From positions 1 to 22,199 of the IMG/VR virus record IMGVR_UViG_3300040801_002342: a stretch of 22,199 bases of DNA, one strand, 5' to 3'. The DNA is from a virus. The notes beneath the pieces are model-generated. The model was not told where the DNA came from. It was given only the letters and a program-made list of their open reading frames with translations, and searched no databases. Numbering within the stretch: the stretch's first letter is position 1; each line of letters begins with the position of its first letter. Below, piece after piece: positions 244-22,199 of this stretch. The position numbers and the translations under genes are program-made.

Positions 244-279
244 TAGATAATTTCAATACAAACGATAGGGATTATCTAT
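243..279 (+). promoter_or_regulatory. Inverted repeat overlapping the portal start codon
   Basis: ATAGATAAT (243-251) and ATTATCTAT (271-279) form a perfect 9-bp inverted repeat with a 19-base spacer. The right arm covers the first base of the TTG start, and the spacer contains the likely ribosome-binding stretch GATAGGG (264-270). It could be a protein operator, or an mRNA hairpin that presents or masks the start. The AT-rich stem would be weak as RNA, so a DNA-binding site is at least as likely. Confidence 0.4.
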
Positions 280-1928
280 TGACTCCGGAAGAAATCAGCA
301 AATACATACAGGACATGCCCGATGACGTGGCATCCCACCTGTCTTTCTCCACTGCCAGCACAAACGCACCGGCAACCGATGCAGACGGCTTCCCCATTGC
401 AGGCGGAAGCGCAGGGCGTAAGGAAAGGCGCAGCCGTGAGGATTTGCAGGATGAGTGCTGGACCAAGTTCCATGAGAATCCGCAGATCAACACCGCCGTC
501 CGCGGCCAGATCGGCAGGCTCACGGGCATGGGCTTTGAGTCCACTTCCGCAGAAATGGAAATCCAGAACGCTATCGAAGATACAGAGAAGGACCATCGCA
601 ACCGGCTGTGGGATCTCTGGCCCAAGTTTACAGGCCGTGCGCTCATCGAAGGTGAGCTGTTCCTTTCCCTCACCATCCACAGGGACGGTTTTGTGGAAGT
701 GGATTTCATTGATCCCAAGAGCATACAGGGTATGGGGGATGACGACACCGGCATTATCTACCACAGCCGCAAACCCACCCTGCCGCTCTTTTACAATATC
801 CGTACCGACAGCGACGCACGGAACCGTGACTCCCGAATCCCCCACACAGAGCAGGTGCCCAGCATCAACATAGCCCGCTTTCCGGAGTACATAAAGGATG
901 CCAAAAAGCATCCCGGATGGAATGCCGAGTATCAGAAGACATCCAAGGGCCGCAGCTTTCATCAGGTGGTGGACGGGGTAAAGAGTTTCTTCCGGCCCTA
1001 CCGGAACCTGAGCGGATACAACCGCTTTATCGTGGAGTGGAACAAAGGACTCTGCACCCGCCGGGCAACGGCCTATCTGCGGACGACGATCAAGTGGATA
1101 AACCACTATGAACGTCTCAAGGAATACGAGATAGACCATAAGAAATCGTCCTCCGCACACTGCTTTGTCACCACATGCCAGTCCTGGCGGGACTATAAGA
1201 ATTTCGCATCGCTTCCGGATGATGTGAAGAAGAAAAGCGGCCTTGCCCATACGGTACGGCCAGGGGATCACCGCATACTTCCCCCCGGATTCGATACCAA
1301 AGCGGTATCGCCCAACCTGCCTTCCCTGAGCGGACAGGATACAGACATCATGGATATGGTTTCTTCCGGCCTGAACGAACCCCAGGACATTATGACCGGC
1401 AGGGCATCGGGTACCTTCGCATCTGTCAAGGCACAGAAAGGGCCATACACCGACCGTATATCCGATGAGATTGCCTACTTTGAACGCTGGCTGAAAAACG
1501 ATTTCTGGTCTGCGGTCTTCTATCTCAAGTCCGCATCCGGACATATGAGCCCGGCCTATATCAGTGAAGTCGTCACCGGTTTTACAGTGGACGCAGCCGG
1601 AAACCATACAGAGGAAACAAAGGAAGTGCTGGTACCGCCCGAAGCACTGGTGGATATATCCTTCCCCATCTCCGAAAATACAGACCTGGAAAGCATGAGC
1701 AAGGCATATCTGGGCGTTAAGCACGGCCCCCTTGTGGACAGCCTGGGCGTACCCCGAAGCATGGTTGCCAAGCGGCTCGGCTTCCCCAATTACCGGAGAC
1801 TGAGACTGCTCAGCGCACAGGAAAAACGGCAGTACCCGGAACTGGCCCTGAGCATAGATCAGGAGAAAGTACAGGAAACCCTGGAAGCCGAACCCTCTTC
1901 CGAAGAACTGGCGGAGCGTACACAGTGA
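279..1928 (+). CDS. Phage portal protein (lambda gpB-like)
   Basis: A 549-residue protein recognised as a phage portal by overall pattern, probably of the lambda portal family. Portals form the twelve-fold ring at one capsid vertex, seat the terminase during packaging and carry the neck afterwards. The N-terminal part has NPQINTAVRGQIGRLTG, as portals do where they tile against each other, followed by an acidic beta-rich core (FVEVDFIDPKSI). The C-terminal third has NEPQDIMTGRASGTF and a helix-rich stretch, and the end is acidic and flexible. The start is TTG at 279 with GATAGGG 8 bases upstream; the frame is closed upstream by TGA at 216-218 and no in-frame ATG lies between. A later ATG at 315 would remove twelve residues. 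Its stop overlaps the next GTG start. Length is close to lambda gpB (533 residues). Confidence 0.85.
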   Translation: MTPEEISKYIQDMPDDVASHLSFSTASTNAPATDADGFPIAGGSAGRKERRSREDLQDECWTKFHENPQINTAVRGQIGRLTGMGFESTSAEMEIQNAIEDTEKDHRNRLWDLWPKFTGRALIEGELFLSLTIHRDGFVEVDFIDPKSIQGMGDDDTGIIYHSRKPTLPLFYNIRTDSDARNRDSRIPHTEQVPSINIARFPEYIKDAKKHPGWNAEYQKTSKGRSFHQVVDGVKSFFRPYRNLSGYNRFIVEWNKGLCTRRATAYLRTTIKWINHYERLKEYEIDHKKSSSAHCFVTTCQSWRDYKNFASLPDDVKKKSGLAHTVRPGDHRILPPGFDTKAVSPNLPSLSGQDTDIMDMVSSGLNEPQDIMTGRASGTFASVKAQKGPYTDRISDEIAYFERWLKNDFWSAVFYLKSASGHMSPAYISEVVTGFTVDAAGNHTEETKEVLVPPEALVDISFPISENTDLESMSKAYLGVKHGPLVDSLGVPRSMVAKRLGFPNYRRLRLLSAQEKRQYPELALSIDQEKVQETLEAEPSSEELAERTQ

Positions 1929-2287
1929 TAAGGGCAAAGCTATACGACATACCGGAAGAACTCGGTATCTTCCGCGGTAACGACTTCCCTTTTGATGTGT
2001 TTGTCGTGCAGTCCGATGGGGTCACAGCGGTTGATCTTACCGGATGGTCTGTAAAATGCGAAATCCGCAAGCGCCGGAACCGCAATGCGCCCTTGGTGGC
2101 AGCCCTTACGGTATCCATTCCCGATCCGACAGACGGTAAAATTTATATGCGCCTTACGGATACCGAAACAGCGGAACTGCCTGTCGGAACATGGCATTAC
2201 GACATACTGTTCACCGATCCGGCAGGGAATGACTTTGTATATATGTACGGTGAAGTGACCGTATCGGGAACGGTGACGGCAAAATGA
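1925..2287 (+). CDS. Small beta-rich phage structural protein, Ig-like or BppU-N-like
   Basis: A 120-residue protein starting with GTG at 1925, overlapping the portal stop (GTGA). Its pattern (GNDFPFDVFVVQSDG, then VDLTGWSVKCEIRKR, then TDTETAELPVGTWHYDI and a closing GEVTVSGTV strand) is a layout I associate with small all-beta domains found in many phage virion proteins. Some of these resemble the N-terminal part of baseplate or fibre proteins. No catalytic motif, signal peptide or membrane segment is seen. Lying between portal and fibre-like genes, it is probably a virion accessory or adaptor protein. The fold is inferred from pattern, not from a search. Confidence 0.6.
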   Translation: MIRAKLYDIPEELGIFRGNDFPFDVFVVQSDGVTAVDLTGWSVKCEIRKRRNRNAPLVAALTVSIPDPTDGKIYMRLTDTETAELPVGTWHYDILFTDPAGNDFVYMYGEVTVSGTVTAK

Positions 2288-2748
2288 CAGATACTGTACT
2301 GATTATCCCGGAAAAAGAGATTGTCGTACTGCAACTGCCCGATCAGGGTCCGTCCGGTCCCCAGGGGCCGCCCGGCGAAAGCGGCGGGGATACAGAGCGG
2401 GTTACAGTCACCAAAGTGGCATCCCATCCCATCTCCGGGCATCGGCTTATCTGTGCGGACAACACAGGCAGGGCCGTGTACGCGTCCCACAGCGACACAC
2501 TCACAACGCACCGGGTTCTGGGACTCAGCACCCATGCGGCGGCATTCAATACGAATGTGCAGATACTGTCTGCCGGTGAAATCACGGATGACACATGGGA
2601 TTGGGACACAGACCTGCCGGTATTTCTTGGGCTGAACGGACTGCTGACACAGACAATGCCCACATACGGTGCAATCCTGCCGGTGGCATTCCCGGTTACT
2701 TCGCAGACCCTGCGGGTAAAAATCGGCGAACCCGTATATTACTCATAA
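2284..2748 (+). CDS. Head-fibre or decoration-like protein with a short collagen-like segment
   Basis: A 154-residue protein with an ATGA overlap to the gene before it. After a short N-terminal strand it has a run of Gly-X-Y triplets (GPSGPQGPPGES, about residues 22-33), the trimer-forming motif common in phage fibres. The C-terminal half (WDWDTDLPVFLGLNGLLTQ, then PTYGAILPVAFPV and a final PVYYS) follows a pattern I recognise from phage fibre and capsid-surface proteins: a WxW, a Gly-Leu-Asn-Gly turn, then paired strands. I infer a trimeric surface protein, on head or tail. Its place before the capsid genes favours the head. Confidence 0.65.
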   Translation: MTDTVLIIPEKEIVVLQLPDQGPSGPQGPPGESGGDTERVTVTKVASHPISGHRLICADNTGRAVYASHSDTLTTHRVLGLSTHAAAFNTNVQILSAGEITDDTWDWDTDLPVFLGLNGLLTQTMPTYGAILPVAFPVTSQTLRVKIGEPVYYS

Positions 2749-2766
2749 AGCCATAAGGAGAGGCAA

Positions 2767-3393
2767 ATGGCGAACAAAACAGGCAAATATTATACCAAGG
2801 ATGACCTCGGCAGGGATGTGCTGATTGATGCAGTCAACAGCTCCGCCGGGGCTGCGGATGCGGATAAGGTAATCAAAACCAATTCTTCCGGCAAGGTGGA
2901 TGAGACACTGCTGCCCCAGGCTACGGTCAGCACATCTTCCGGAGCAGGAGACGCAGGCAAGTGGATTGAAACCAATTCTTCCGGCCTGCTGGACGAAACC
3001 TTTCTGCCCACCGGTGTCGGCCCGGAAATTTTTACAGCACCTGCCAGTGAGGATTTGGCAGCCGGGGATTTTGTAAATTTCTGGAATGACTCCGGAACAC
3101 TGAAAGCCCGGAAAGCGGACGGATCAGCAGACAAACCCTGGCACGGCTTTGTCAAGGCTGCCGTTACAACTGGGAGTAACGCAACCGTATATCTTCCCGG
3201 TCAGCAGAATGACCAGTTAAGTTCGTTGACAGTCGGGGCGGAATACTTCCTGTCCCAGACCGTGGCAGGGGATGTGGTACTGGCAGCAGCACTGGATTTC
3301 GACACATCCGGATACATCATTGACCGGGTGGGGATTGCGGCTTCCGCAACTGTTATTTTGACAGAGAAAAGCCCGCGGGTGGTGATAGCGTAA
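2767..3393 (+). CDS. Probable head-fibre or surface protein with tandem 31-residue repeats
   Basis: A 208-residue protein behind a strong ribosome-binding site (AAGGAGAGG before ATG at 2767). Residues 26-50 and 57-81 are two copies of one repeat with a 31-residue period (TNSSGKVDETLLP against TNSSGLLDETFLP). Such Gly-Lys-Asp-Glu-Leu-Pro-type repeats are seen in phage fibre shafts. The C-terminal part (about residues 90-208) has AGDFVNFWNDSGTLKARKADG and a following beta-rich head like capsid-surface proteins. It shares the fibre character of the gene before it, and the two may assemble on the same spike. No enzyme motif is visible. Confidence 0.65.
   Translation: MANKTGKYYTKDDLGRDVLIDAVNSSAGAADADKVIKTNSSGKVDETLLPQATVSTSSGAGDAGKWIETNSSGLLDETFLPTGVGPEIFTAPASEDLAAGDFVNFWNDSGTLKARKADGSADKPWHGFVKAAVTTGSNATVYLPGQQNDQLSSLTVGAEYFLSQTVAGDVVLAAALDFDTSGYIIDRVGIAASATVILTEKSPRVVIA
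2842..3009 (+). repeat. Tandem 93-bp coding repeat in the fibre-like gene
   Basis: Two copies about 93 bases apart encode the 31-residue repeat units. They share the identical stretch ACCAATTCTTCCGGC near 2878 and 2971. Other codons have drifted, so this is an older duplication under protein-level constraint. Confidence 0.7.
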
Positions 3394-3414
3394 TTATCAG
3401 ATAAGGAGGGCATT

Positions 3415-3684
3415 ATGAATGTAGTATCAAGGTCCATTACTTTCGCCCGGAAACTTGCAGAAGTACGGGAACTGGCACAGAGCATCAAAGATGAAATCGC
3501 AGCCCTGGGCGGCGTTTCTGTCGGTACGGATTCCTATTTCCTGGATGATAACGGAGACCCCCGCACAGATCTGGAAGTGTCTCAGACAGCGTTTTCGGCA
3601 ATTCTGACAACAGGGAATACCCTGCTGACCACGCTGGATGCAGGACACCGCACCAACATATACAATGTAGTCAACGGGAAATAA
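3415..3684 (+). CDS. Small protein of unknown function, helical N-terminus
   Basis: An 89-residue protein with an excellent ribosome-binding site (AAGGAGGG, spacing about 5) before ATG at 3415. Residues 8-32 (ITFARKLAEVRELAQSIKD and onward) look like an amphipathic helix. The middle (SYFLDDNGDPRTDLEVSQ) is loop-like and a second helical part follows. I do not recognise a family. Its place between a fibre-like gene and a small beta-rich gene, with strong predicted translation, suggests a virion or assembly protein, possibly an oligomerisation partner for the fibres; that role is inference from position. Confidence 0.6.
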   Translation: MNVVSRSITFARKLAEVRELAQSIKDEIAALGGVSVGTDSYFLDDNGDPRTDLEVSQTAFSAILTTGNTLLTTLDAGHRTNIYNVVNGK

Positions 3685-3685
3685 T

Positions 3686-4045
3686 ATGAAATACCTCGTT
3701 CTGCCCCTGCTGCCGTCATACGTCCCCTTTGAGGTCAACTGCTGCAAAGCGGATGGGACAAAATACGACCCGACCAGCATCTCCCTGAATGTGTATGAGG
3801 AGGGAGGGGCGGACGGGACTTTTGATAATTCGGCAATCACCGGTTCCCCCTTCACACCGGCAAAGATCAACAGCAAAACCGGGGATTACGGTGTGCTGAT
3901 TGCCAAGAGCAGCTTCACGGCGGGCAAGATATACCGCCTGCTGTGGGAGGCAACGGTGGACGGCACGGATTCGCACTGGGTGGAGACGTATCTGGCAACC
4001 AACAAGAAATGGCTGACGCTGGTGGCAGGAGGCTACGAGGCATAA
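3686..4045 (+). CDS. Small beta-rich phage protein, Ig-like pattern
   Basis: A 119-residue protein starting one base after the previous stop. Its pattern (VPFEVNCCKADGTKYDPTS, then NSKTGDYGVLIAKSSFTAG and YRLLWEATVDGTDSHWVET) resembles the single-domain beta-sandwich proteins of phage virions, and in outline the product of 1925-2287. It may be a diverged relative of that gene, with the fibre-like genes between them. Its TAA overlaps the ATG of the protease gene by one base, so the two are probably translationally coupled. Function not established. Confidence 0.55.
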   Translation: MKYLVLPLLPSYVPFEVNCCKADGTKYDPTSISLNVYEEGGADGTFDNSAITGSPFTPAKINSKTGDYGVLIAKSSFTAGKIYRLLWEATVDGTDSHWVETYLATNKKWLTLVAGGYEA

Positions 4046-6123: not shown

Positions 6124-7341
6124 ATGCCAAACACAGTAAATGATATTCCGGAACTGAGGCTGACAACGCTCCAGGGAGTGATTGAGCGGTTTACCACCCC
6201 TCCGGACCTGTATTTCAGCAGCAAGTTTCCGGAATCCGATCTGGAAAGCGACAATGTGGAATGGGAATCCTTTGTGGGCAGCCGCGGGCTTGCCCCCTTT
6301 GCGGCCCCGGATTCCGAATCCAAGGAAACAGCGCCTGCCGGTTACGGCCTGCACGCGCTCAAGGTGGCCTACTGGAAAGAGCGGATGCACTTCGGGGAAG
6401 CCTTCCTGAACAAACTGCGGCAGCCCGGCACCCTTGCCAAGAAAACAGCCGAAAGCTATCTGAATGAACAGCTTGGCGGCCTGGAAAACCGGAACCGGCG
6501 CAGAAAAGAATGGATGTTTGCCCAGATGATCTGCAACGGCGGCTTTTCCTACAAACAGCCCAATGACGTAAAGGTGGCCGTGGATTACGGACTGCCTGCG
6601 GATCATAAGGTTACGCTGGCAAGCGACTACAAATGGGGCAGCGGCACCAGTTCCAACATGCTCAAAGACATCCGGGATGCACAGTTGAAACTCCAGAACG
6701 ATGTGGGCGCAGAGTTCGCAGAAGCCTATATCACCACGGAAGTGCTGTACCTGATGCTGGAAGACGATAATATCGTTTCCCTGCTGGAAAAGAGCAAGTT
6801 CGGCAACGGCGACCTGTTCGCCCGGCCCAAGGAAGTGCTGTCTTCCCTGCTCAATATCAGCTTCGTGATCTATGACGAGCAGTATCAGATCCGTTCCTGG
6901 CTGCTGAACAATGTCACCGCGGACAGCACCACTGTCCTGAGTGTGGATGAGGCAATGGATTACGAGGCAGGGGACACCCTGTTTATCTACTGCCCCGAAG
7001 AGAAAAAACGGGAAGCCCTGACCATTGCATCTGTGGATCAGGATGCGTCCACCGTCACGGTATCGGTTGCGCCCACGCAGAACTACAGCGCAGTGAAGAC
7101 CTGTGTGTATGTGACCAAAAAATTCATCCCCACCAATCAGTTCACCATGTTCTGCCCCAATATCCAGGGCCAGCCCTCTGCCGAGTTCAAACGGGCACCC
7201 TTCGGCCTGAACGGTTCCTACGGAATGCAGGTGGACCGGCATGAGACCTGGGACCCGGACGGAGTGTTTATCCGTGTTCAGGATAAGGGGCTCCCTGTGC
7301 TGTATAACCCGGACGCTGTGTATCAGCTCATCGTAACATAA
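6124..7341 (+). CDS. Major capsid protein (lambda gpE-like)
   Basis: A 405-residue protein with a good ribosome-binding site (AGAGGAGAGG) before ATG at 6124. The N-terminal arm (TTPPDLYFSSKFPESD), the early SRGLAPFAAPDSESKETAP loop, GEAFLNKLRQPGT and the NRRRKEWMFAQMICNGGFSY helix fit the lambda gpE family, which adopts the HK97 fold. The C-terminus (RHETWDPDGVFIRVQDKGLP) ends in a typical capsid A-domain pattern. Lambda gpE has 341 residues; the extra length is largely accounted for by a beta-rich segment at about 266-334. Its place after protease-scaffold and decoration genes supports the call. Confidence 0.9.
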   Translation: MPNTVNDIPELRLTTLQGVIERFTTPPDLYFSSKFPESDLESDNVEWESFVGSRGLAPFAAPDSESKETAPAGYGLHALKVAYWKERMHFGEAFLNKLRQPGTLAKKTAESYLNEQLGGLENRNRRRKEWMFAQMICNGGFSYKQPNDVKVAVDYGLPADHKVTLASDYKWGSGTSSNMLKDIRDAQLKLQNDVGAEFAEAYITTEVLYLMLEDDNIVSLLEKSKFGNGDLFARPKEVLSSLLNISFVIYDEQYQIRSWLLNNVTADSTTVLSVDEAMDYEAGDTLFIYCPEEKKREALTIASVDQDASTVTVSVAPTQNYSAVKTCVYVTKKFIPTNQFTMFCPNIQGQPSAEFKRAPFGLNGSYGMQVDRHETWDPDGVFIRVQDKGLPVLYNPDAVYQLIVT

Positions 7342-8045: not shown

Positions 8046-8629
8046 GCAGCCTGGCAGATGACATCCGGGATGTGTATGCGGAGATCGGCAGCAGGATACA
8101 TGTGCTGAACGGCAGCACATGGACCGATGACGCATACATAGACACAGAGCAGGATATGGGATCACCATATCTGCGCCGTGCCTTCTTCCCGGTGTCATCC
8201 GCGGCTGTCCCCGGCAGTATTGTCCGGATACCGTCCGTGAATGCGGACTTCCTGATGCTGACCCGGATACCCGGTGTGTTTGAAGATGCGCCCTATGAGT
8301 ATGAATCCCTGCTGTTCATGGTCAATGTGACAGCCATTATTGTCCGCCTGAGCCATGAACGGGACGCATCCACCTACCGGCAGACGGTGGTGGAAAGCGA
8401 AGTGCGGAACCCTGCTTACGGATTCATGAGCCCCGGAACCGTAACGCTGACAGCCGGAAGAACCGGCAACATGATACTGGACGAAAACGACCTGTACATA
8501 CCGGCAGCCTACAATGCGGCAGCAGGGGACAGGGTAAAGTTTGATAACGAAGAACGGCAGATTGAAAGTATCCGCCTGCGAGATTATCCCGGCGTTGCTA
8601 TCTGCCGTCTCAGCACGGACAGCCGGTGA
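8042..8629 (+). CDS. Probable neck protein (head closure, gpFII position)
   Basis: A 195-residue, mostly beta-rich protein. The start is TTG at 8042, overlapping the previous TGA. Sequence such as GSIVRIPSVNADFLMLTRIP and AGDRVKFDNEERQIESIRLRD suggests a small beta-barrel, and the position (after the connector, before tail completion genes) is that of head-closure proteins. A central segment (YESLLFMVNVTAIIVRLS) is hydrophobic but looks like buried strands. The call rests on order and size. The stop is followed one base later by the holin start. Confidence 0.5.
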   Translation: MSSLADDIRDVYAEIGSRIHVLNGSTWTDDAYIDTEQDMGSPYLRRAFFPVSSAAVPGSIVRIPSVNADFLMLTRIPGVFEDAPYEYESLLFMVNVTAIIVRLSHERDASTYRQTVVESEVRNPAYGFMSPGTVTLTAGRTGNMILDENDLYIPAAYNAAAGDRVKFDNEERQIESIRLRDYPGVAICRLSTDSR

Positions 8630-8630
8630 T

Positions 8631-8987
8631 ATGCTTAAACAGACCCTTGAACTAATGGAACAGAACTTCCTCGGATTTGTCCTGGGACTGTTCGGCGGAA
8701 TGATACGCGACCTGAACAGCGAAAGTTTCAGCTTCCGCCTGTTCATCATCGGCACCATGACATCGGCATTCATTGCTGTATTTGTCAGTCTGCTGATAGG
8801 GGATATGGATATATCAGACGGCTTCAAGGCCGCCATCATCGGTATCTCCGGATACTGTGCCAAGTATGCACTGGAGATGTTTGAACGCTGGTTCCGTTAT
8901 CTCATGCAGGGGATAGAGAAACGCTTCAAGGCTAATGTGGACAGTAATGCAGGGCCGGAGGATAAAGACGGGGGGGACGAACAGTGA
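8631..8987 (+). CDS. Phage holin, three-helix type (LydA / holin superfamily III-like)
   Basis: A 118-residue membrane protein that should form the holes releasing the endolysin. Hydrophobic stretches lie at about residues 13-25, 36-57 and 64-82. FLGFVLGLFGGMIRDLN and GDMDISDGFKAAIIGISGYCAK match a pattern I know from P1 LydA-type phage holins. The C-terminal tail is charged, as in many holins. I chose ATG at 8631, one base after the previous stop; a longer in-frame start at 8541 would lie deep inside the preceding gene and add a non-holin leader. The stop overlaps the GTG of the next membrane protein gene (GTGA). Confidence 0.85.
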   Translation: MLKQTLELMEQNFLGFVLGLFGGMIRDLNSESFSFRLFIIGTMTSAFIAVFVSLLIGDMDISDGFKAAIIGISGYCAKYALEMFERWFRYLMQGIEKRFKANVDSNAGPEDKDGGDEQ

Positions 8988-10178: not shown

Positions 10179-10618
10179 GCCTGCACCCCACCGCCAAAGA
10201 GAAGAACCTGAAACTGTCCGTAATCAGGCATTTCACAGACAATATCTATACGGCCCTGTCTGTGCCTGTGCTGTTTGATACCGGGCTGGACTGGCCGGGA
10301 GACGGTAATCTGTGGGTGGTGCTGACGCAGGACTATCTGGAGATGAGCGGCAATGCCCTCAGTATGATGGTGCTGACCATGATGCTGTGCAGCCGGGAAG
10401 ACCCGGACGGCATAGAACTGGCAGCCCTGCGGGATGACATCATGCCCCTGCTGGCAAACAGTATTCCGGTATGGGACACGGATGCCGATCCCTGGACCAT
10501 CATCAACCGCATGACTGCGGACAATATCAACGAAGGGCCTGTAACCACAGACCCGGACGGAAGCAAATACAAGGCCGTGACCCTACGGCTGCGCTTTGCC
10601 AATAAGGTGACAGCATGA
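10175..10618 (+). CDS. Probable tail terminator protein (gpU position)
   Basis: A 147-residue protein that begins in an ATGA overlap and ends in another with the endolysin gene. The pattern VIRHFTDNIYTALSVPVLFD, a central strand WVVLTQDYLEM and a C-terminal strand VTLRLRFANKV fits the alpha/beta fold of tail terminators, which cap the finished tail tube and join it to the head. Position (before the tail tube, after gpZ-position gene) matches lambda U. No motif is decisive. Confidence 0.6.
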   Translation: MSLHPTAKEKNLKLSVIRHFTDNIYTALSVPVLFDTGLDWPGDGNLWVVLTQDYLEMSGNALSMMVLTMMLCSREDPDGIELAALRDDIMPLLANSIPVWDTDADPWTIINRMTADNINEGPVTTDPDGSKYKAVTLRLRFANKVTA

Positions 10619-11151
10619 AAGTATCCCAGAACTGCGTGGATTTGGTGAAACACTTCGAGAGCCTGCATGACGGCGACCTGACAGTAATCGGGCTTCAGCC
10701 CAAGATGTGCCCTGCCGGAATATGGACGGTGGGCTACGGACGTGCTTTGCGGAAAGGCAAGGGCAAGTTCCTGAAAGGGAAGAAAGACCGGGCCGCTGCA
10801 TACGCTCAGTTCCCGTCCCTGACCGAAGAACAGGCAGAGCGTATGCTGGCCGAAGACCTGATAACCTTTTCCCAGGCAGTGGGCGGCATACTGGAACGCT
10901 GGAACGTGGATCTGATCCAGCAGCAGTTTGATGCAGTCGTAAGCCTTTGCTACAACTGCGGAACCGGTGCACTGGAATACAAGGGCAAACCCCGTTCCGT
11001 GCTGCGTGTGCTGAGAGCCAAAGAGCATCAGTATATCAAAGAAACATTCGGCCTGTGGGTCAAAAGCGGCGGCAAAGTTTTGAGAGGGCTTGTCCGGCGC
11101 AGACGGTGCGAGGCGCACCTGTTCCTCACAGGTGAAGTGAAGTTTGAATAA
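10615..11151 (+). CDS. Endolysin, GH24 lysozyme (muramidase)
   Basis: A 178-residue phage lysozyme that should cut the glycan strands of peptidoglycan. The family pattern is clear: KHFES (Glu15), PKMCPAGIWTVGYG (Cys32, Thr38), then VSLCYNCG and a basic C-terminus. Glu, Cys/Asp and Thr form the catalytic set of T4- and P21-type enzymes; here the middle position is Cys. Between Glu15 and Cys32 there are 16 residues, about eight more than usual (HDGDLTVIGLQPKM), an insertion at the active-site cleft. No signal peptide or signal-arrest-release segment is seen, so export should depend on the holin. It lies inside the tail gene block, about 1.6 kb after the holin, and is coupled to the preceding gene by ATGA. 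Confidence 0.9.
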   Translation: MKVSQNCVDLVKHFESLHDGDLTVIGLQPKMCPAGIWTVGYGRALRKGKGKFLKGKKDRAAAYAQFPSLTEEQAERMLAEDLITFSQAVGGILERWNVDLIQQQFDAVVSLCYNCGTGALEYKGKPRSVLRVLRAKEHQYIKETFGLWVKSGGKVLRGLVRRRRCEAHLFLTGEVKFE

Positions 11152-12119: not shown

Positions 12120-12605
12120 GTGACAGACAAGCTCAACCCGAAAATCCGTAAAATGCCCGTAGGTATCAAAACAATCCGTGAAGTGACGGTGTATCCCCTT
12201 TCGGTCGGTGCCCAATTGGAAATGACTGACCTGATAGGGGAAGCCATTGCTTCCGCGTCCGCTTTGGATTCGGAAGACGCAAAAAAGGACGCCGCATGGA
12301 TCGGCCTGATCCTTGGAACCATTAAGCAGAATGCCGCTGAAATGCTCAGCAAGGCAACCTGCGGGGAAGAGGACGGGAAGGCATTGCTCAACGATATTGA
12401 TAACGATCAGTTCATTGATATTGTGGAGCATCTATTTGAGGCCAATTATTCCGGAGGGCTAAAAAAAATTCCGGTGATGATGGAGAAGTGGAAACCGCTG
12501 TTTCTGAAGACGACTTCGAGCGATCCGTCTCCTACTTCCTCGGAAGGTACACCCAGTACCGCCTCGAAGACATCTACCGGAAAGACTTCCGGCAAGGCGG
12601 CCTGA
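12120..12605 (+). CDS. Tail assembly chaperone, short form (gpG-like)
   Basis: A 161-residue protein starting with GTG at 12120, just after the tail tube gene and before the tape measure. The N-terminal 115 residues (IRKMPVGIKTIREVTVYPLS and a helical core to FEANYSG) should bind the tape measure protein and keep it soluble until tube assembly. After the frameshift site the zero-frame end (KTTSSDPSPTSSEGTPSTAS) is Ser/Thr-rich and low-complexity. The call rests on place, size and the frameshift arrangement. Confidence 0.75.
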   Translation: MTDKLNPKIRKMPVGIKTIREVTVYPLSVGAQLEMTDLIGEAIASASALDSEDAKKDAAWIGLILGTIKQNAAEMLSKATCGEEDGKALLNDIDNDQFIDIVEHLFEANYSGGLKKIPVMMEKWKPLFLKTTSSDPSPTSSEGTPSTASKTSTGKTSGKAA

Positions 12606-12904
12606 CCTACGGACAGATTGAGTCTCTGACAAAAAATGCCCTGGACAGTGACGCAGCACAGATGAAATTCTATGCGGCCTGTCACGGGGCATCACCCGAA
12701 GGGGAACCCGGCGATACACCTATCGGCGATCATTACTCTGAATCAGGAATGAAAAACTTGCCCACGGACAAAGATCCAAGGTTTCGGGGATGTGTGCCGG
12801 GCGACCCTTCATCATACGCCCACCTGTCTGAAGAATTACAGCAGGAATTTATGGAAAAGCGTATGAACGAAGACCGTATGTTTTTCATGAAGGCGTTTTC
12901 ATAG
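12120..12904 (+). CDS. Tail assembly chaperone, frameshifted long form (gpGT-like)
   Basis: A -1 shift on A AAA AAA (12461-12467) joins the first 116 codons of the short form to the -1 frame, which is open from 12467 to the stop at 12902-12904, giving about 261 residues. The added part begins NSGDDGEVETAVSEDDFERS, then has RYTQYRLEDIYRKDFRQGG and ends ELQQEFMEKRMNEDRMFFMK. In lambda the T part recruits tube subunits to the tape measure complex. The T frame alone has only a GTG at 12488 with no clear ribosome-binding site, and it overlaps the short form by 118 bases, which favours frameshifting over independent initiation. Confidence 0.8.
12461..12468 (+). promoter_or_regulatory. -1 ribosomal frameshift site (A AAA AAA)
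   Basis: In the short-form frame the codons read CTA AAA AAA ATT, so the heptamer A AAA AAA fits X XXY YYZ exactly; the A run is eight long. After a -1 slip the next codon is AAT, in the long-form frame. GGAGGG at 12453-12458 is Shine-Dalgarno-like and ends two bases before the heptamer. Such elements stimulate shifting, although in dnaX the spacing is longer. I see no convincing downstream hairpin. Confidence 0.8.
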
Positions 12905-12908
12905 CGAG

Positions 12909-12945
12909 ACGGGAGAGACCGGCAAGCCCGGCTCTCCCGTTTTTT
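12909..12945 (+). terminator. Intrinsic terminator between chaperone and tape measure genes
   Basis: ACGGGAGAG (12909-12917) pairs perfectly with CTCTCCCGT (12932-12940). An inner CCGG/CCGG pairing (12919-12922 with 12928-12931) extends it past a bulged A, with a five-base loop. T residues run from 12940 to 12945. It lies 4 bases after the long-form stop and 37 bases before the tape measure start, so it could reduce transcription of the tape measure relative to the tube. Confidence 0.8.
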
Positions 12946-12982: not shown

Positions 12983-15900
12983 ATGGCAGAACATAATATC
13001 ACCCTCGGCGCACTGTTCCAGGCGCACACCACAAAATTCCTCAATGACCTGAAAAAAATAGAAGCATCCATGCGCCGTGTGGCGCAGCAGGCGCAGGTCA
13101 TCAATACCGCAGCGGCAAAGGCAGGGGCAGGTCTTTCCTCTATGGGGAGTGCGGCTCAGAAGGTTACGGCTGCCGGAAACTCCATGAGCAGACATGCCCG
13201 CGTTGCCGGAACCCTGAATAATGCCTATGACAAGCTATCCCTGTCCATGCGGGCCATGATAAACACCGCAGCCAGGGTACAGGCAGGGATGGACAAGACC
13301 ACTGCCACACAGAAAAAGGCCACGGCGGAAACACAGAAAGCCGCTGATGCCAATAAAAGGGCGGCGGCCCAGGCCAAAGAGACCGCCACACAGACCGGCA
13401 AACTTGCCGACACCATGCAGCAGGTGGTTCAGCGGGTAAAAGACTACAGCCGTTTTGTCATGGCGGCCACAGTGGTATATGGCTTTGTCAATGCCATCCG
13501 TGCGTCCATAGCCGAGATCATCGACTTCGATCAGGCTCTGCGGAACCTTCAGGCCATATCCGGTTCCTTCCCCCATGAGATCAAGGCCATGGCAAAGGTC
13601 ATGATTGAGCTTGCCCGGAACACCAAATTTTCCACCAGTGAGATTGCCGAAGGTATGGTACTGCTCACCCAGAGCGGTTACACCACGGCAGAGGCACTGG
13701 AAGCAATACGGGCAACCGCCGACCTTGCCACGGGTACATTGTCGGAAATGGCCGAAGCTGCCGACCTGCTGACATCCACCACTCGTGCATTCAGCCTGAA
13801 CACCAAAGAATCCGGACGTATTGCGGACGTATGGGCCAATGCCATTGACAAGTCCAAACTGAGCATCGAAAAGCTGCGGATCGCCATGAACTACATCGGC
13901 GTATCCTCCGCACAGGCAGGGCTTTCCCTGGAGCAGACCGCCGCAGCCATGATGGTACTGGCGGACAACGGCTTGCGGGCCAGTACAATTGGGACGGGTT
14001 TCCGGCAGGTTATCTCCAAACTCATTGCGCCCAATGACAAGTTTGCTGCCGCACTTATGGCACAGGGAGTTGCCCTGGAACAGATGAACCCCAAGGTTGT
14101 CGGCCTGGAAGAATCCATGCTCAACCTTTCATCGGTTCTCTGGGATGCGGAACAGCAGACCGTAAACATGGGGAAGGCATATGAATACTTCGGGCTCCGC
14201 GGGGCGCAGGCCGCAGCGGTCATCGTAAAAAGTTTCGCAGCCGGTTCCGGTTTTGACAATGCCCTGAAGATGGTCAACGAAGTGGGCACCGCCGCAAAGA
14301 TGAACGCCATACAGTCCGAAGGTCTGGCAATCAAGTTCAAGAACCTTGCCGACCGCGGCAAGCTGGTGGCAGAGGCATTGGGGGATGCAGGGGTATCCGG
14401 TGTGCTGCATCTGCTGGTGGATACCCTGAAAGCCGCAACAACCATGCTGGAAACCTTTGTCCGTTCCGGTATCGGTAAAGTGGTGTTGCAGACAGCGGCA
14501 TGGACGCTGGCGATCAAAACAGCGGTGAACGGTATTGTGGCACTGAACACCGCGCTGAAAAGCCTTGCCATTGTCGAAACCATCACCCGCCTTACCCGCA
14601 TGAGCGCAGCCACCAATACGGCCACCGCCACCTTTGCGGTAATGGGCCGCAGGCTGAAAAGCCTTGTTTCCACAGGAAATCTCTATATGGCCGCCATCGC
14701 CGCCGCCGGTGTTGCGCTGTATAAATTTGCAAAATACAACCGGGAAGCCGCCCAAAGTGCGGCGGAACTGTCTATTGAGTACGAGCGTTCCTACGATTCC
14801 CTGATCTATTTCCGGGACGTTCTCCAGGACATCTCCGCGCAGGAAGGCATAGACGCACAGGAGGAAGCGGTACAGGCTGTACAGCGATTCGCCTCCCATT
14901 TCCCCGAACTGGCCGAAAAGGTCATGCTTTACAAGGACACCGCAGACCTTGCCAACCTCAGCACAGAAGAACTGGTAACAGCCATGAACCAGCTTGCAAC
15001 GGAAGAACTGAAAGGCCAGTTTGAATCCGCTGCCGAAGCATTGGGCCGTTACAGTATTGAAGTGGAAAAGACCATCAAAAGCAGCGAGTTCCTGTTCACA
15101 TCCATGTTCACGGGTTCGGAAGATATAGAACGTGCCCAGGCGGAATACCGCTCCGCCCTGATCCAAACCACCGATACCCTGTCGGAGTTCACAACACAGT
15201 GGGGATGGTCACGGGATCAGGTGCTGTCATACATACAGGAAATGGGCGAGTCCACCCATATGAACGCATCCGCTATCAAAGAGATGGGAGATGCCTATAT
15301 CGCAGAGATGGACCGCATAGAGGCCACCACCGCCCGCACACTGAAAAATTTCAAGTCTTCCATAGAACGGATGCCCGAATCCTTCCGGGTGGCATACGAG
15401 GAAATGAGCGCCGTGCAGAAGGTGGACTTCATCAAGTTCCAGAAAGACCTGGACGGCAAGGTGGCCGCATACGACAAGGCCGCCAAGACCCTGAACCTGA
15501 CAGAAGAGGAACGGATCAAAAGTCTTGCTGCCCTCCGTGCCAAGGAATACGCGGGGTATTTCCTGGAAAATCAGAAGATGGTGGACGATACCCGCAGCCG
15601 GGAAGAACAGATCATTGCCATTATCTCTGAATTCACGGAAAAATCCAAATCTCTGTATGAGGAAGGCGCAATCACCCGTGAGCAGTACGAAGGGCAGATC
15701 CTCGGATACATGAACCTTGCCAATGAGGAATATATCGCAGGTATCCGGCAGGCATATGAAAAAGCCGAGGAGATCATGCGCTCCCACCTGTCTTCCCTGG
15801 AAAGCGAGTTTGACCAGTTAAAGGACAAGATCGCCGGGATCAATAACGAGATTGCCAGTGAGAATGAATCCTTCTATGCGTCCATGCGGGACATCCAGCA

Positions 15901-18900
15901 GAAAACCATGAGCGATGAGGAACGCTGGCTGGACGACCGTAAAGAGGCAAACCGCCTGCTGGCCGAAGGGGTGAAGTCTGCCAATAAGGATATGGTGCGG
16001 GATGCCTCCGCCATGTTCAAATCCCTTGCCCGTGAAGTGCAGGACGAAAACGGCAAAACCGTGATGGATGTGGAGGAAACCGCCGCCGTTGCTGCCAAAG
16101 GGATAGAGGACAGTCACAAGGCCACAGTGGATATTCTGAAGAAACAGAAGGATGCCTTTGCCAAAGAAATGGAGGGTATCCGCTCGGAGATTGAAGAAAC
16201 CGAGAAAAAACTTGCCGAATACAAACAGCAGGTGATTGACGTATCTGCCGTACCGCTGAATATCAATACCGATCAGGTGAACGAAGGCATAGACAGTGCC
16301 GTGGAGAAACTGGACGAATTCCGCGGGAAGATACTGGCAATGCAGGATGTGGAAGTGGCAGTCAGCTTCACCGGCTACGGTTCCAGCAAAAAGCCTTTGA
16401 GCGAGAAAACCGCAGAAATGGCCGAGCGGGTAAAAGACTTTGTGGACGGTGTGGAAGAAGGCACCCCGGAAGTGAATGTGGACTTCTCTCCCATATCCAA
16501 AGACCTTGCGGAACTGGCAGAACACGCAAAAATGGCAGCACAGGAAAATGAGCTGCTGAAGAAGACGCTGACCGTAGCCGCCGATGCCACCGAGCAGGCC
16601 GATCTTGCCAAGCAGATAGAAGCAAACAACCAGCGCATCCTTGATTCGGAAGAAGCGAAAAACGCACAGATACTGCTGGATAACGACAAGGCTGCCAAAC
16701 TACGACTGGAGCAGGAACGTATCCTCAACAACGAACTGATGGGTATCCGGACAGAAGCCCTGAAAAATACGCAGGGCGCAATTCAGCAGCAGTTACTGGA
16801 AGAAATCCGTATGCTGCACCAGAATGCCGGTGAGCAGCTTAAAGTGCAGGATAATATCAATCAGCGGATTGAGGATAATACAAGCGGGTTCTGGAAAAAA
16901 TTATTGGTAAGAGTAGGGGAATTCATTACAGACTGGCGTTCCATATTCTCCGACCAGAGCGAAGAATGGATACGTCACCATGAAAGCGTGGAAACCAGCA
17001 CAAAACAGCATAATGAGCGTATGAAGCTCATGCAGAAGAGCTTTGCCCTGGACATAGATGCGGCGGAACTGGAAAGAATTGAGTCTGTCAAGCGCACCTA
17101 CCAGCAGCTCTATGAAGTAACCGGCGACGCTTCCATGCTGGAGAAAATACAGCAGGACAACAAGCAGATACTGATTGCCGAAGAAGTGAAGAACGCACAG
17201 ATATTGCAGGATGCGGAACTGGCGCACCGCAAGTATCTGGCGGATATGGAAATCTTCCACCAGGGGATACTGGACAGCCAGCTCCGCTTTGCACAGAAAA
17301 GCGTAGAGGAATACCGCAATCTGTATGAGTCCACCGGCAATGAAAAATATCTGGCGATGTGGGAGGAGAACAGCCGGAAGATCGTAGAGATTGAAACGCA
17401 GAAAATGGCAAAGATTGTCCAGAACGAGGACGATCTGAACGTGATCCGGATGCAGCGCCTGAAGAACTTTGAGGCCGAAGCCCTGAAGGTCCGCATGGAC
17501 AAACTCAAAGAGCAGCAGCAGATGTATGCGCTTCTGGCCCAGGGCGGTGAAACAGATGCGGCCACGCTGAAAAAGATACAGGAAATCAACAAGCAGATTG
17601 TGGCAGCAGAGGATAACAAGAACAACCGTATCCTTGCCATTAACCAGGATTATGCCGAACGCAAACGGCAGATACAGGAGAAATCCGCACAGGAAGCCGC
17701 TGTTATTGCAAAGCGGGAATACGACACCATGTTCCCGGATATTTCCGCCAGTATTGACAAAATCAGTGAAAAGTTGTCGGTGGCGGCCACCGCATGGGAA
17801 GGCGGTCTTGTCTCCTTCGGCGCATCACTCACCCAGGCAGGTTATGAGGTATATCATCAGGCCATAGAACTTTCCCTGGCCGGACTCGGCAAGATGATGG
17901 AGATTTCCACCCAAATGCCGACCTATGTAGCGCAGATGCTCGGGAAGATACGGGATATTCTGAAGGGGAATAATATCGTAAAGATGCTCATCCCGGATTC
18001 ATGGGAACCCTATCTCCAGGATAAAATGGACAGGGCGGTTTCTATTGTCGGTGAAGGTGCAGGGATGGTAGCTTCGGTAATGTCCCCGGTAACAGATGCC
18101 ATCAAAGAGTGGGATGTGCATTGGTTCTGGTGGTTCCGGAATATGCACGGGCAGATATTCCCGCCGCTACTGGCAGATGCCAAAACCCTGAATCTTGCAT
18201 ACGACTCTTTGGGGCTCTCCACACAGGAAATGATCCGCAAGGGGGCAGAGCTTCAGAAATTAACATCATCCGGGAAACCGTTGCAGGCAGGGGTATTCAC
18301 ATCCCTGAAAGAAGAATTCCGTGCGGCGGTCGGCATGGTGGATAAGTTCAAAGCGATTATGTCGAAACTTGGGGCTGTCGGTAAAGCCATTGCTGCGCCC
18401 ATTGTGTATCCGTTCAAGCAGGTCATCAAGTTTGCAGGTGTGGCAAACGATAAATTAGGCACACTGTTTAATATGTTTAAAGAAGGAATGGCTTATGACC
18501 CGGCGAAAGGATTGGAAGGATTAGCGAAAACAGAGGCCGGTCATGCTGATGCAGCAGGTAAGAAACTAATAGACCTTGGCAAAATATTCCGTTCCGTTGT
18601 GGACGGCATGAAGAAAGCGGCCCTTGCCACGGTTGAACTTATCAAAAAATCCGTAACCGGCCTGCGTAATCTTATCAGCGGGTGGCTCCGCAGTCTTGGC
18701 AATACCAAAGCCTTCTCTGCCCTTGCCAAAGGATTTGAGGCAATATTCGACCCGATCATCCGTGCCATCGGCTCCGCCAAGTCACAGCTTACCAAATTCT
18801 TTAACTGGCTGGCTCCCATTGCCAGACGTGTCGGAACAAGGGTGTGGCTGGCTATCGGCCCGCCGCTGACCAAAATTGCGGCTATCGGTATGCGGATATT

Positions 18901-21900
18901 CAATATCTTCGGTGTTATCATGGCCGCCGTGGACGGATGGAACCTTGGCCGGTGGATCGGCAATATCGAAGTCGGCTTTATCAAAGTGGATGACATTATC
19001 CAGACCATGTGGGGGGATGTCTTTATCCTTATAGACAACTTCGGCATCCTGTTCGAGAAAACCATGATGGGAATCAAGAACGTGGTCAACACCGTTACCG
19101 GGGCAATCCCCCTTATCGGCAAATTTCTTCAGCTTGATACGGAAGGCAATAAGAATGCCATTGATGATTACGAGCGGGATATCCGGCGCATAGAGGAACT
19201 GCAAAAAGATATTATGCTGGGGCGCACATATGAAGGCGATTCTCCCACTGTCCATCAGGCGAACAAAGAGATTGCAGCTTTGAAAGAGAAGTCTTCTGTC
19301 ATGCAGCAGTTGGCAATTGAGGAAATCAATATCGCAAATGAAGCGGTCATTGCCGGTGAAATGAAGGTGAAACAGGCCGAGCATGTTGCTTTGTACGAGG
19401 TGGAGACGCAAAAAGCGCTTCTGGCAGAAAAAAAGCGATTTATCAAAGAGGAGATTGAGGCGAATGAAAAGGCAGATAAGAAACGCCTGGGTGATCGTGT
19501 CGAAAAACTGGCAAAGATCAACGATAATGAATACCTGACTGAGAAGGAGAAAGAGGAGCGGGTATCCGCCATGTATGAGGCAGAGGTGGAAAGCCGCATA
19601 CAGACACACCTTTACGGCGTTGAGAAAGAAGGCAAGGTAACACAGGAAGGCGTTATCCATAGACTGCGGATGGAAAGGGAGCTTACTTATCAGAAAGGTG
19701 CCCTGTACGAACACGACCGGAAAACCGCAGAGAACAGCATAGAGAAAATCACAGACGAAGCCATCGCCGCCAAGATGAAGGAGCTTCAGGCAGCAAGGGA
19801 GGCAAACCAGCAGAAGCTGGATGATGACGCACAGACCGCCCAGGCCCGCATGGACATGAACCGCAAAATCTATGAGATAACCGGAGACACCAAGTATCTT
19901 GACAGCAACAAGGAACTGAACGAGAAGCTGGTGGAAGCGGAAGCGAAGCGACTGGAAACCTTCCTGATGATGAACACCAACAACGCGGAGGAAACCGAAA
20001 GACTGGTGGCCGTTGCCAAAGAGAAGATGCGGGCGCAGTTTGCCAAGAAAGAACTGGACGAAGCCGCCGCCGTTGCCAGCCAGAAAAACGACCTGCTGAA
20101 AAAGCAGTTGGAGATTGACCCTTACAACGCGTCCCTGACCGAGCAGATCAAGAAGAACAACGAGATCATCCTTCAGGCGGAGTTCGAGAAGAACAAGGAA
20201 ATTCTCTCACAGAACGCCACCACACAGGAAGAACTTGCACGGGCATCCGAAACCGCATCCGCTCTTATGGCAGAACAGGCCAAAGCCATGAACAAGGAAC
20301 TCGGCTCTTTTGCCGGGGCGGATATTGCCCCCGCATTTGCCAAAGCAATGGCCGGGGTAAAGGTGGTGCTGGCCGACTATACCGAAGAGCAGAAGCAGGC
20401 CGTCACCCAGGCACAGGCCGAATACATGGTCTTCTACGACAACCTGGACGCCATGCGGAAACTTGACTTCAAAAAAATGGTGGAAGACACCCAGGCGCAG
20501 GCCGATGAGTTCAAGAAGGCCGCCGACCGTATGGGGATCAGCGAGGAGGAAAAGCAGGATACCATCAACCGCATCCGCAAAGATGCCTTTGAAGCATTCA
20601 AACAGCAGACCGAAGCAGAGGCAAAGGCCGTGGCCGAATCCTCTGTCGGCAAGGTGGTGGAGAATATCGAAAAGAAGGTGGCCGCATTGCAGGCCGCCAG
20701 CCAGGATAAGATTGCTGCCTATGAGGAAGAAATCGCCCGGATAGAAATCGCCCAGGCAGAAGCGGAAGCATCCATGTATGAGACAATGGCATCCACTCCG
20801 CCTGCCACGGAATCCCCCTTCTTCAAATCCCTGAATGAATCGGTCGGCAACCTTGCGGACATGAGCGAGCAGGAACTGGATATTATCCGCAAAAGCAACC
20901 AGGAGAAATATGCGGCCTATACCGCCTCCCTTACGGAAGAGCAGCGATTTGCACTTGGTAAAAAAGCCTTTGAGGATTCCATGCGGGAGTCCATCGGCAA
21001 CATGTCCGACCTGACCGCACAGGAAATCGAAGCAGCGAAGCAGCGGAATATTGAACTTGCCAAGGCATATCAGCAGGCCCCCAAAGGTGCGGTCGGCATG
21101 ACAGAAGAGGATGTCGCCGCCAGTATGACCGCTGCGGACAAAATCAGGGCCATACAGTTGAAGATGTCCGAAGAAAGAGTAAATGCCATCCGTGCGGAAC
21201 TGGGCATACAGACGGATATGCTGGATCAGCATGTGGATAAAGAGCGAGACGCTGCTGCCAAAAGCCTGGGTGTGAAAAAAGCCTCTATGTCGAAAGAGAC
21301 GGAAGAGGTCAAGAAATCCCTGACCGACCAGGAAAAACTGGATGCCGAATACGCTGTGGAGCGGGCAAACTTCTGGCTCCAGAATGAGGAACTGGCAAAG
21401 AAGCGCGGTGTGAATCTGGTACAGCTTGAAAAAGAAGCATATGAGGCAATGGATGCACTGTATCAGGACGATGTAAAAAACCGTGAGGAAGCTGCCAAGG
21501 AAAGCATAAAGGTTGCCGAGGCAGGCAGTAAGGGCGCTGCCGCTGTGCAGCGGGATTATGCAAAGGAAGTGGAAGGCGTTGAAAAGGCCGTTCTGGAGAA
21601 GAAACGGGAATATTACAAACAGGCCAAGGAAGCCCTGAAGAAAGAGCTTCAGGATTCCCTTGCAATGGAAAAGCAGATTGCAGAGGAGATCAAGGCCGTC
21701 CGTAAATCCATTGCCGATGAGCAGAAAAGCACGGAAGAGAAGATCCGTGACCTGCGCCGGGGCACCATGACAGAACAGGCCGCCTATAATGACAAATGGG
21801 CGGAGATCAATGAGAAGGTTGCCAAGGCCGAGGCAATGAGCAACGCTCAGTACGAAGAGAAAACCCGCCTGCTGAAAGAGGCAAAGGACGCTGCCGCTGG

Positions 21901-22199
21901 CATGGCAACGGAGATAAAGGACGGGGAGAATGTGCTTGTCTCCAAGGCATCATCCACACAGCGGGCAATATCCGCAATCACCGAGATCAATAACAAGATG
22001 AAAGCAGTTTCGGAAGTGCGGGTAAAAGTGCTGGAGAAAGCACAGGCCGACACCAAGAGCAATACCGCTGCCATTGAGGAGTCCCTGACAGTTACGAACG
22101 GTAAACTGGACGCTATCGGCAAGGTGCTGGATGAGAAGGTGAACAAGGGCCTGGAAGATGCGGCACGGCAGGCAAAGGATTTAATGGAAGAACTGAACA
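12983..22199 (+). CDS. Tail tape measure protein, very large (partial, open at window end)
   Basis: ATG at 12983 follows AAGG with a 7-base gap. The frame has no stop up to the window end: at least 3,072 residues. The protein sets tail length, fills the tube and may help DNA entry. About residues 175-500 match the tape-measure core pattern (IDFDQALRNLQAISGSFP, ARNTKFSTSEIAEGM, YIGVSSAQAGLSLEQTAA, GLRGAQAAAVI). Hydrophobic stretches lie at about 567-583 and 1942-1993 (GPPLTKIAAIGMRIFNIFGV, then VDGWNLGRWIG). An aromatic patch WDVHWFWWFR lies at 1710-1719. The rest is mostly charged coiled coil with diverged internal repeats. I see no lysozyme or peptidase domain in the visible part, but the C-terminus is missing. 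Confidence 0.9.
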   Translation, partial: MAEHNITLGALFQAHTTKFLNDLKKIEASMRRVAQQAQVINTAAAKAGAGLSSMGSAAQKVTAAGNSMSRHARVAGTLNNAYDKLSLSMRAMINTAARVQAGMDKTTATQKKATAETQKAADANKRAAAQAKETATQTGKLADTMQQVVQRVKDYSRFVMAATVVYGFVNAIRASIAEIIDFDQALRNLQAISGSFPHEIKAMAKVMIELARNTKFSTSEIAEGMVLLTQSGYTTAEALEAIRATADLATGTLSEMAEAADLLTSTTRAFSLNTKESGRIADVWANAIDKSKLSIEKLRIAMNYIGVSSAQAGLSLEQTAAAMMVLADNGLRASTIGTGFRQVISKLIAPNDKFAAALMAQGVALEQMNPKVVGLEESMLNLSSVLWDAEQQTVNMGKAYEYFGLRGAQAAAVIVKSFAAGSGFDNALKMVNEVGTAAKMNAIQSEGLAIKFKNLADRGKLVAEALGDAGVSGVLHLLVDTLKAATTMLETFVRSGIGKVVLQTAAWTLAIKTAVNGIVALNTALKSLAIVETITRLTRMSAATNTATATFAVMGRRLKSLVSTGNLYMAAIAAAGVALYKFAKYNREAAQSAAELSIEYERSYDSLIYFRDVLQDISAQEGIDAQEEAVQAVQRFASHFPELAEKVMLYKDTADLANLSTEELVTAMNQLATEELKGQFESAAEALGRYSIEVEKTIKSSEFLFTSMFTGSEDIERAQAEYRSALIQTTDTLSEFTTQWGWSRDQVLSYIQEMGESTHMNASAIKEMGDAYIAEMDRIEATTARTLKNFKSSIERMPESFRVAYEEMSAVQKVDFIKFQKDLDGKVAAYDKAAKTLNLTEEERIKSLAALRAKEYAGYFLENQKMVDDTRSREEQIIAIISEFTEKSKSLYEEGAITREQYEGQILGYMNLANEEYIAGIRQAYEKAEEIMRSHLSSLESEFDQLKDKIAGINNEIASENESFYASMRDIQQKTMSDEERWLDDRKEANRLLAEGVKSANKDMVRDASAMFKSLAREVQDENGKTVMDVEETAAVAAKGIEDSHKATVDILKKQKDAFAKEMEGIRSEIEETEKKLAEYKQQVIDVSAVPLNINTDQVNEGIDSAVEKLDEFRGKILAMQDVEVAVSFTGYGSSKKPLSEKTAEMAERVKDFVDGVEEGTPEVNVDFSPISKDLAELAEHAKMAAQENELLKKTLTVAADATEQADLAKQIEANNQRILDSEEAKNAQILLDNDKAAKLRLEQERILNNELMGIRTEALKNTQGAIQQQLLEEIRMLHQNAGEQLKVQDNINQRIEDNTSGFWKKLLVRVGEFITDWRSIFSDQSEEWIRHHESVETSTKQHNERMKLMQKSFALDIDAAELERIESVKRTYQQLYEVTGDASMLEKIQQDNKQILIAEEVKNAQILQDAELAHRKYLADMEIFHQGILDSQLRFAQKSVEEYRNLYESTGNEKYLAMWEENSRKIVEIETQKMAKIVQNEDDLNVIRMQRLKNFEAEALKVRMDKLKEQQQMYALLAQGGETDAATLKKIQEINKQIVAAEDNKNNRILAINQDYAERKRQIQEKSAQEAAVIAKREYDTMFPDISASIDKISEKLSVAATAWEGGLVSFGASLTQAGYEVYHQAIELSLAGLGKMMEISTQMPTYVAQMLGKIRDILKGNNIVKMLIPDSWEPYLQDKMDRAVSIVGEGAGMVASVMSPVTDAIKEWDVHWFWWFRNMHGQIFPPLLADAKTLNLAYDSLGLSTQEMIRKGAELQKLTSSGKPLQAGVFTSLKEEFRAAVGMVDKFKAIMSKLGAVGKAIAAPIVYPFKQVIKFAGVANDKLGTLFNMFKEGMAYDPAKGLEGLAKTEAGHADAAGKKLIDLGKIFRSVVDGMKKAALATVELIKKSVTGLRNLISGWLRSLGNTKAFSALAKGFEAIFDPIIRAIGSAKSQLTKFFNWLAPIARRVGTRVWLAIGPPLTKIAAIGMRIFNIFGVIMAAVDGWNLGRWIGNIEVGFIKVDDIIQTMWGDVFILIDNFGILFEKTMMGIKNVVNTVTGAIPLIGKFLQLDTEGNKNAIDDYERDIRRIEELQKDIMLGRTYEGDSPTVHQANKEIAALKEKSSVMQQLAIEEINIANEAVIAGEMKVKQAEHVALYEVETQKALLAEKKRFIKEEIEANEKADKKRLGDRVEKLAKINDNEYLTEKEKEERVSAMYEAEVESRIQTHLYGVEKEGKVTQEGVIHRLRMERELTYQKGALYEHDRKTAENSIEKITDEAIAAKMKELQAAREANQQKLDDDAQTAQARMDMNRKIYEITGDTKYLDSNKELNEKLVEAEAKRLETFLMMNTNNAEETERLVAVAKEKMRAQFAKKELDEAAAVASQKNDLLKKQLEIDPYNASLTEQIKKNNEIILQAEFEKNKEILSQNATTQEELARASETASALMAEQAKAMNKELGSFAGADIAPAFAKAMAGVKVVLADYTEEQKQAVTQAQAEYMVFYDNLDAMRKLDFKKMVEDTQAQADEFKKAADRMGISEEEKQDTINRIRKDAFEAFKQQTEAEAKAVAESSVGKVVENIEKKVAALQAASQDKIAAYEEEIARIEIAQAEAEASMYETMASTPPATESPFFKSLNESVGNLADMSEQELDIIRKSNQEKYAAYTASLTEEQRFALGKKAFEDSMRESIGNMSDLTAQEIEAAKQRNIELAKAYQQAPKGAVGMTEEDVAASMTAADKIRAIQLKMSEERVNAIRAELGIQTDMLDQHVDKERDAAAKSLGVKKASMSKETEEVKKSLTDQEKLDAEYAVERANFWLQNEELAKKRGVNLVQLEKEAYEAMDALYQDDVKNREEAAKESIKVAEAGSKGAAAVQRDYAKEVEGVEKAVLEKKREYYKQAKEALKKELQDSLAMEKQIAEEIKAVRKSIADEQKSTEEKIRDLRRGTMTEQAAYNDKWAEINEKVAKAEAMSNAQYEEKTRLLKEAKDAAAGMATEIKDGENVLVSKASSTQRAISAITEINNKMKAVSEVRVKVLEKAQADTKSNTAAIEESLTVTNGKLDAIGKVLDEKVNKGLEDAARQAKDLMEELN
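17108..17353 (+). repeat. Two diverged YExTG helical repeats in the tape measure
   Basis: LYEVTGDASML (from residue 1376) and LYESTGNEKYL (from residue 1447) are copies 71 residues apart. A third, IYEITGDTKYL, occurs from residue 2296 (base 19868). Each is followed by a charged helix with Ala/Glu/Lys-rich heptads. They suggest that the rod grew by duplication of a helical unit. Confidence 0.65.
20837..21070 (+). repeat. Two 28-residue repeats 50 residues apart in the tape measure
   Basis: Residues from 2619 (ESVGNLADMSEQELDIIRKS and on to AAY) and from 2669 (ESIGNMSDLTAQEIEAAKQR and on to KAY) align without gaps over 28 residues. The nucleotide copies have drifted strongly, so the similarity is kept at protein level. 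Confidence 0.65.

Follow-up and report, generated by a model that had tools for sequence, protein, structure and literature searches.

A tape measure protein of at least 3,072 residues, with an inserted repeat region and a diverged second pre-C-terminal copy, in an uncultivated siphovirus-like lineage

The ratio of tail length to tape measure protein (TMP) length is 0.145 nm per residue in phage TP901-1 and 0.15 nm in lambda, and duplication of a part of the TP901-1 TMP makes the tail longer in proportion (PMC5099701). For phiCbK, whose TMP (gp95) has 1,964 aa, a tail of 295 nm is predicted and one of 300 nm is observed (PMC3556154). The Gordonia phages Katyusha and Benczkowski14 carry tape measure genes of 9,084 bp and have tails of about 500 nm, and the corresponding gene of GMA7 comprises 9,141 bp (PMC4919401). 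The tail of Thermus phage P74-26 exceeds 800 nm (PMC9022992); its tape measure gene spans 15,021 bp and encodes a TMP of 5,006 aa. It has also been reported that TMP length is altered through duplicated units, namely 11-residue repeats (Belcaid et al. 2011, PMC3271669). Phages with very long tails are uncommon, and the origin of such tails has been little studied.

Here we describe a giant TMP gene located at the end of an IMG/VR record (IMGVR_UViG_3300040801_002342) of 22,199 bases, the whole of which was analysed (referred to below as the window). The initial annotation had recognised a tape measure gene of at least 3,072 codons with no stop, and both statements were borne out. The reading frame that opens at ATG 12983 is free of stops through position 22198 and reaches the end of the record, so that the 3' end of the gene is truncated by the end of the contig. 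The product is a TMP of the TP901/PhageMin_Tail type: PF10145 (PhageMin_Tail) matches residues 207-389 (E 1e-32, 114 bits against a cut-off of 33.2), and twelve tape measure families of PHROG likewise match the protein. Its charge, hydropathy and hydrophobic period (approximately 3.5-3.7), as properties of the sequence alone, agree with a charged, largely helical protein. The best overall explanation of the locus, to which we assign a probability of roughly 0.85, is an enlarged TMP of an uncultivated lambda-type siphovirus, containing an insert and a second pre-C-terminal copy. The features on which this reading is based are collected in Table 1.

Table 1. Features of the head-to-tail region and of the giant TMP gene (positions in the window; residues are those of the TMP)
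Feature	Position	Strand	Remarks
Probable portal protein	279..1928	+	assigned by position and general look, without a family match
Major capsid protein (Phage_cap_E)	6124..7341	+	family match
Probable major tail tube protein, 308 aa	11177..12103	+	relatives; place in gene order
Tail assembly chaperone (gpG-like)	12120..12605	+	conserved in relatives
gpGT-like chaperone extension, -1 frame	12440..12904	+	slippery A AAA AAA (12461-12467), correctly phased; conserved in relatives
Hairpin with U-tract, intrinsic-terminator-like	12906..12945	+	-27.1 kcal/mol, z -6.5; between chaperone and TMP genes
TMP gene	12983..22198	+	3,072 codons, 3' end cut by record end
Ordinary TMP part: N-terminal region, PF10145 core (207-389), first pre-C-terminal copy	12983..16342	+	residues 1-1120; profile columns 9-1125 of 1310
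Insert, about 1,300 residues	16343..20320	+	residues 1121-2446; no clear relative
Four copies of 65-residue repeat	16583..17731	+	residues 1201-1583 (starts 1201, 1377, 1448, 1520)
Low-charge segment, 420 residues	17903..19162	+	residues 1641-2060; 21% charged, Gly 9.8%, Pro 3.6%, 11 Trp
Two more copies of 65-residue repeat	19871..20311	+	residues 2297-2443 (starts 2297, 2377)
Second, diverged pre-C-terminal copy	20321..22186	+	residues 2447-3068 (start about 2312/2447); profile columns about 600-1108

Relatives of the giant TMP were collected with an alignment of three TMP cores, which yielded 53 viral loci and one contig of a metagenome-assembled genome (MAG). In the contig scan, a single-protein query gave no matches, and the alignment query found only L059, a deltaproteobacterial MAG contig. 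The TMPs of IMG/VR contigs L002, L003, L010, L057 and others, as well as that of L059, are approximately 31-46% identical to the giant TMP across the N-terminal core, and the contigs share the gene order portal, protease, capsid, tube, chaperone, TMP. They differ in the size and composition of the TMP itself, which lacks both the insert and the 65-residue repeat. Complete TMPs of the usual kind in 47 related loci have 1,128-2,017 aa (median 1,268), after the removal of TMPs truncated at contig ends and of the short TMPs of L047 (667 aa) and L058 (673 aa). The giant TMP is thus 2.4 times as long as the median relative and 1.5 times as long as the longest, and the logarithm of 3,072 lies about 7 standard deviations above the mean of 38 distinct proteins. 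One further TMP, that of L042 (L042 9707-14100), has 1,464 aa before its contig ends ahead of any C-terminal module; L042 is close to the window by capsid and tube, and its TMP may be enlarged too.

The upstream genes form a head-to-tail block that is common to the window and to uncultivated siphovirus-like contigs, and the portal, protease, capsid, tube and chaperone each have relatives on contigs bearing TMP relatives. The probable portal protein is 42-47% identical to proteins of IMG/VR contigs and has no tblastn match among 50,697 named phage records; the lineage therefore seems to be without a near cultured member. Five small genes lie at 1925-4042, between the portal gene and that of the head maturation protease; two match phrog_4368, and one matches phrog_1084 and has a weaker match to a tail-fibre assembly family. 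A holin gene (phrog_785, 8541-8984) and an endolysin gene (phrog_7, 10615-11148) are placed amid head-completion and tail genes, ahead of the tube and TMP genes, which is an unusual site for lysis genes.

The protein in the tube position has a long form (about 300 aa) also in L045 (50% identity) and L042 (44%), and the other relatives listed match it over the first 100 or so residues only; this pattern points to an extra domain at about residues 105-205. An AlphaFold2 model of this protein, built on three sequences, reached a pLDDT of 32 and was not used. Directly upstream of the TMP gene lies the frameshifted gpG/gpGT chaperone, followed by a hairpin that may reduce expression of the TMP relative to the tube protein; a simple scan of 36 relatives revealed no comparable hairpin. 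Genes of the gpL and gpJ type, which encode tail-tip proteins, follow the TMP gene in L002 and L003, and no tail sheath gene was recognised from the head genes to the TMP, inside which the window ends. For these two reasons the virus is most likely a siphovirus, probably of the lambda type, with the type of tail tip taken from the relatives.

Comparison with a profile (1,310 columns) built on 38 distinct relatives divides the giant TMP into an ordinary part and two added blocks. The N-terminal core had been described as ordinary, and this holds for the whole of residues 1-1120, which match the relatives' profile until the similarity stops shortly ahead of the C-terminal module. The insert that follows has no clear relative in named phages, in IMG/VR or in eight related contigs (the best tblastn match among named phages had an E value of only 0.09). 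It contains a 65-residue repeat that is present six times, grouped in two clusters; the relatives lack this repeat. Because the repeat model was built on the protein's own copies, its scores within the protein are not independent, and the evidence for the repeat consists of BLAST comparison and shuffles. Self-comparison gave 15 off-diagonal matches, the best of them at 43 bits, where no match in 120 shuffles exceeded 25.8 bits; the matches of the repeat family include 1130-1252 with 2303-2440 (E 2e-8) and 1190-1283 with 1367-1452 (E 9e-7). Between the two clusters lies the low-charge segment, which has a single strong hydrophobic stretch (residues 1962-1986), is richer in Gly, Pro and Trp, and does not look like coiled coil.

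The second added block is a diverged copy of the pre-C-terminal region. Residues 2312-2731 align with columns 600-991 of the profile (20.5 bits) and residues 2638-3068 with columns 688-1108 (27.6 bits). With a separate profile limited to the middle region, the first copy scored 122.8 bits, and the second gave matches of 16.4 and 17.9 bits. The highest score among 200 local shuffles was 3.4 bits, and the reversed sequence scored -0.3. Self-comparison also pairs the two regions (767-852 with 2447-2532; 922-1028 with 2875-2985). The signal of the second copy is weak (about 23-38% identity) and the protein is highly charged and helix-like, with a large composition bias, for which the shuffles account. 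The initial annotation had attributed the extra mass to coiled coil and repeats; the repeats and the charged, helix-like stretches fit this description, to which the second pre-C-terminal copy has to be added and from which the low-charge segment departs.

The gene has been enlarged in the lineage of this virus, through an insertion together with what appears to be an old internal duplication. In its fullest form, that of a half-micrometre ruler which arose through a large partial duplication of the pre-C-terminal section together with a new 65-residue ruler repeat, we regard this account as having about an even chance of being correct. Alternatively, the gene might be a mosaic that arose when an ordinary TMP gene acquired, by in-frame recombination, part of the TMP gene of a related phage; the product would still be a giant ruler, with a different history. 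Some relatives align with the second copy as closely as the first copy does, or more closely: the best single relative, L010, aligns with residues 2860-3043 at E 3e-12 (L015, L057, L025 and L009 also match), compared with E 6e-5 to 5e-4 between the two copies. Furthermore, the low-charge segment might represent a second hydrophobic region of the TMP type, and phrog_167 (E 0.31) and a Lactobacillus phage TMP (E 0.09) match it marginally. However, the 65-residue repeat flanks this segment on both sides and occurs in no relative, which suits growth within one gene, and we consider the mosaic origin rather unlikely.

In complete relatives a conserved module closes the TMP; its consensus is ...DGTKSAKEAFKDFARSTLEWLAELISKQ...FAHKGGIVG... 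(also given as ...GTKSAKEAFKDFARS...HKGG-type and ...DGTKSAKEAFKDFARS...HKGG-type). This module is not reached in the window; the giant TMP therefore probably continues beyond it. Searches for an overlapping viral contig, with an exact match to 36 bases close to the end of the window and with TMP residues 2201-3072 and 1117-2100 as protein queries, yielded none (near-identical records may be absent from these searches). The AVDGWNLGRWIG motif, written as a degenerate DNA pattern, had no matches. The number of residues that follow profile column 1108 in complete relatives is 139-595 (median 170), and 139-218 in 34 of the 38; a stop is therefore predicted approximately 140-220 codons beyond the window. 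Hence the gene, previously noted as still open, indeed has no stop before the record end, with probably just this short part remaining. The full TMP would have about 3,210-3,290 aa, if the usual C-terminal module follows without a further block.

The scale of 0.15 nm per residue, from which a tail of at least about 460 nm had been predicted at the outset, is the published one (PMC5099701). It gives 461 nm for the TMP within the window, about 480-490 nm for the predicted full protein, and about 190 nm for the relatives. The predicted tail thus measures approximately 460-490 nm, roughly half a micrometre, and some of the TMP residues may add no tail length, as in TP901-1. The gene had been called exceptionally large, which is correct within its lineage and does not hold among all phages, given the 9.1-kb genes and tails of about 500 nm in Gordonia and the 15,021-bp gene of P74-26. 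Katyusha, Benczkowski14 and GMA7 resemble the window in tape measure gene size, in siphoviral gene order and in the frameshifted chaperones upstream, and their major capsid protein is distantly related to that of the window (E 5e-6). In contrast to their TMPs, for which putative lytic transglycosylase domains have been reported (PMC4919401), no such domain was seen in the giant TMP. The Thermus phages P74-26 and P23-45 likewise have a very long TMP and tail, so that size alone is not new; they are larger still, and their TMP is annotated with a metallopeptidase domain. The Belcaid tape measures differ in the scale of the units, which have 11 residues and vary in number, whereas the giant TMP carries 65-residue units and a copy of several hundred residues. 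The size of this TMP and of its predicted tail is therefore unusual, but precedented in a few cultured phages.

The tail would be shorter than predicted if part of the added region had a separate function, for instance as a domain for passage through the cell wall or membrane. The low charge, the many Trp residues and the strong hydrophobic stretch of residues 1641-2060 are in keeping with this idea. On the other hand, no enzyme domain was found in Pfam or PHROGs, the majority of the residues added are charged and show a hydrophobic period near the helix value, and in TP901-1 and phiCbK tail length tracks the helical length of almost the whole TMP, which together make such a function improbable.

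An assembly or sequencing error fusing two genes or two phages is highly improbable, even for a metagenomic contig that ends inside the TMP gene and for which no second record of the same sequence was found: a false join would need to preserve the reading frame, both halves hold copies of one repeat and of one pre-C-terminal region, which at 22-48% protein identity differ too much for an assembly echo, and synonymous codon use is continuous, being similar in all three parts of the TMP (r 0.87-0.90). Fusion with an unrelated gene was rejected as well.

If the enlarged TMP acts as a ruler, its copies would be coated by the gpG/gpGT chaperones and extended as a helix within the growing tail tube; the length of the TMP would fix the point where tube polymerisation ends, and the copies would exit along with the DNA during infection. 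In this lineage the protein has been enlarged to at least 3,072 aa (predicted 3,210-3,290), retaining the usual N-terminal core and pre-C-terminal helices. Some 1,300 residues, including the six repeat copies, have been added, with the second, diverged pre-C-terminal copy placed ahead of the predicted C-terminal module.

The general understanding of tape measures is unchanged by these findings. Their merit lies in the contrast of this TMP with its own lineage and in its readable block structure: the rulers of the lineage are otherwise fairly uniform (1.1-2.0 thousand residues), and one member has more than doubled in length, with the added blocks still distinguishable. This provides a natural test of whether tail length tracks ruler length when the addition consists of a new repeat and a duplicated helix. 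If the gene did grow by partial duplication, the natural steps of tail lengthening would be readable within a single gene.
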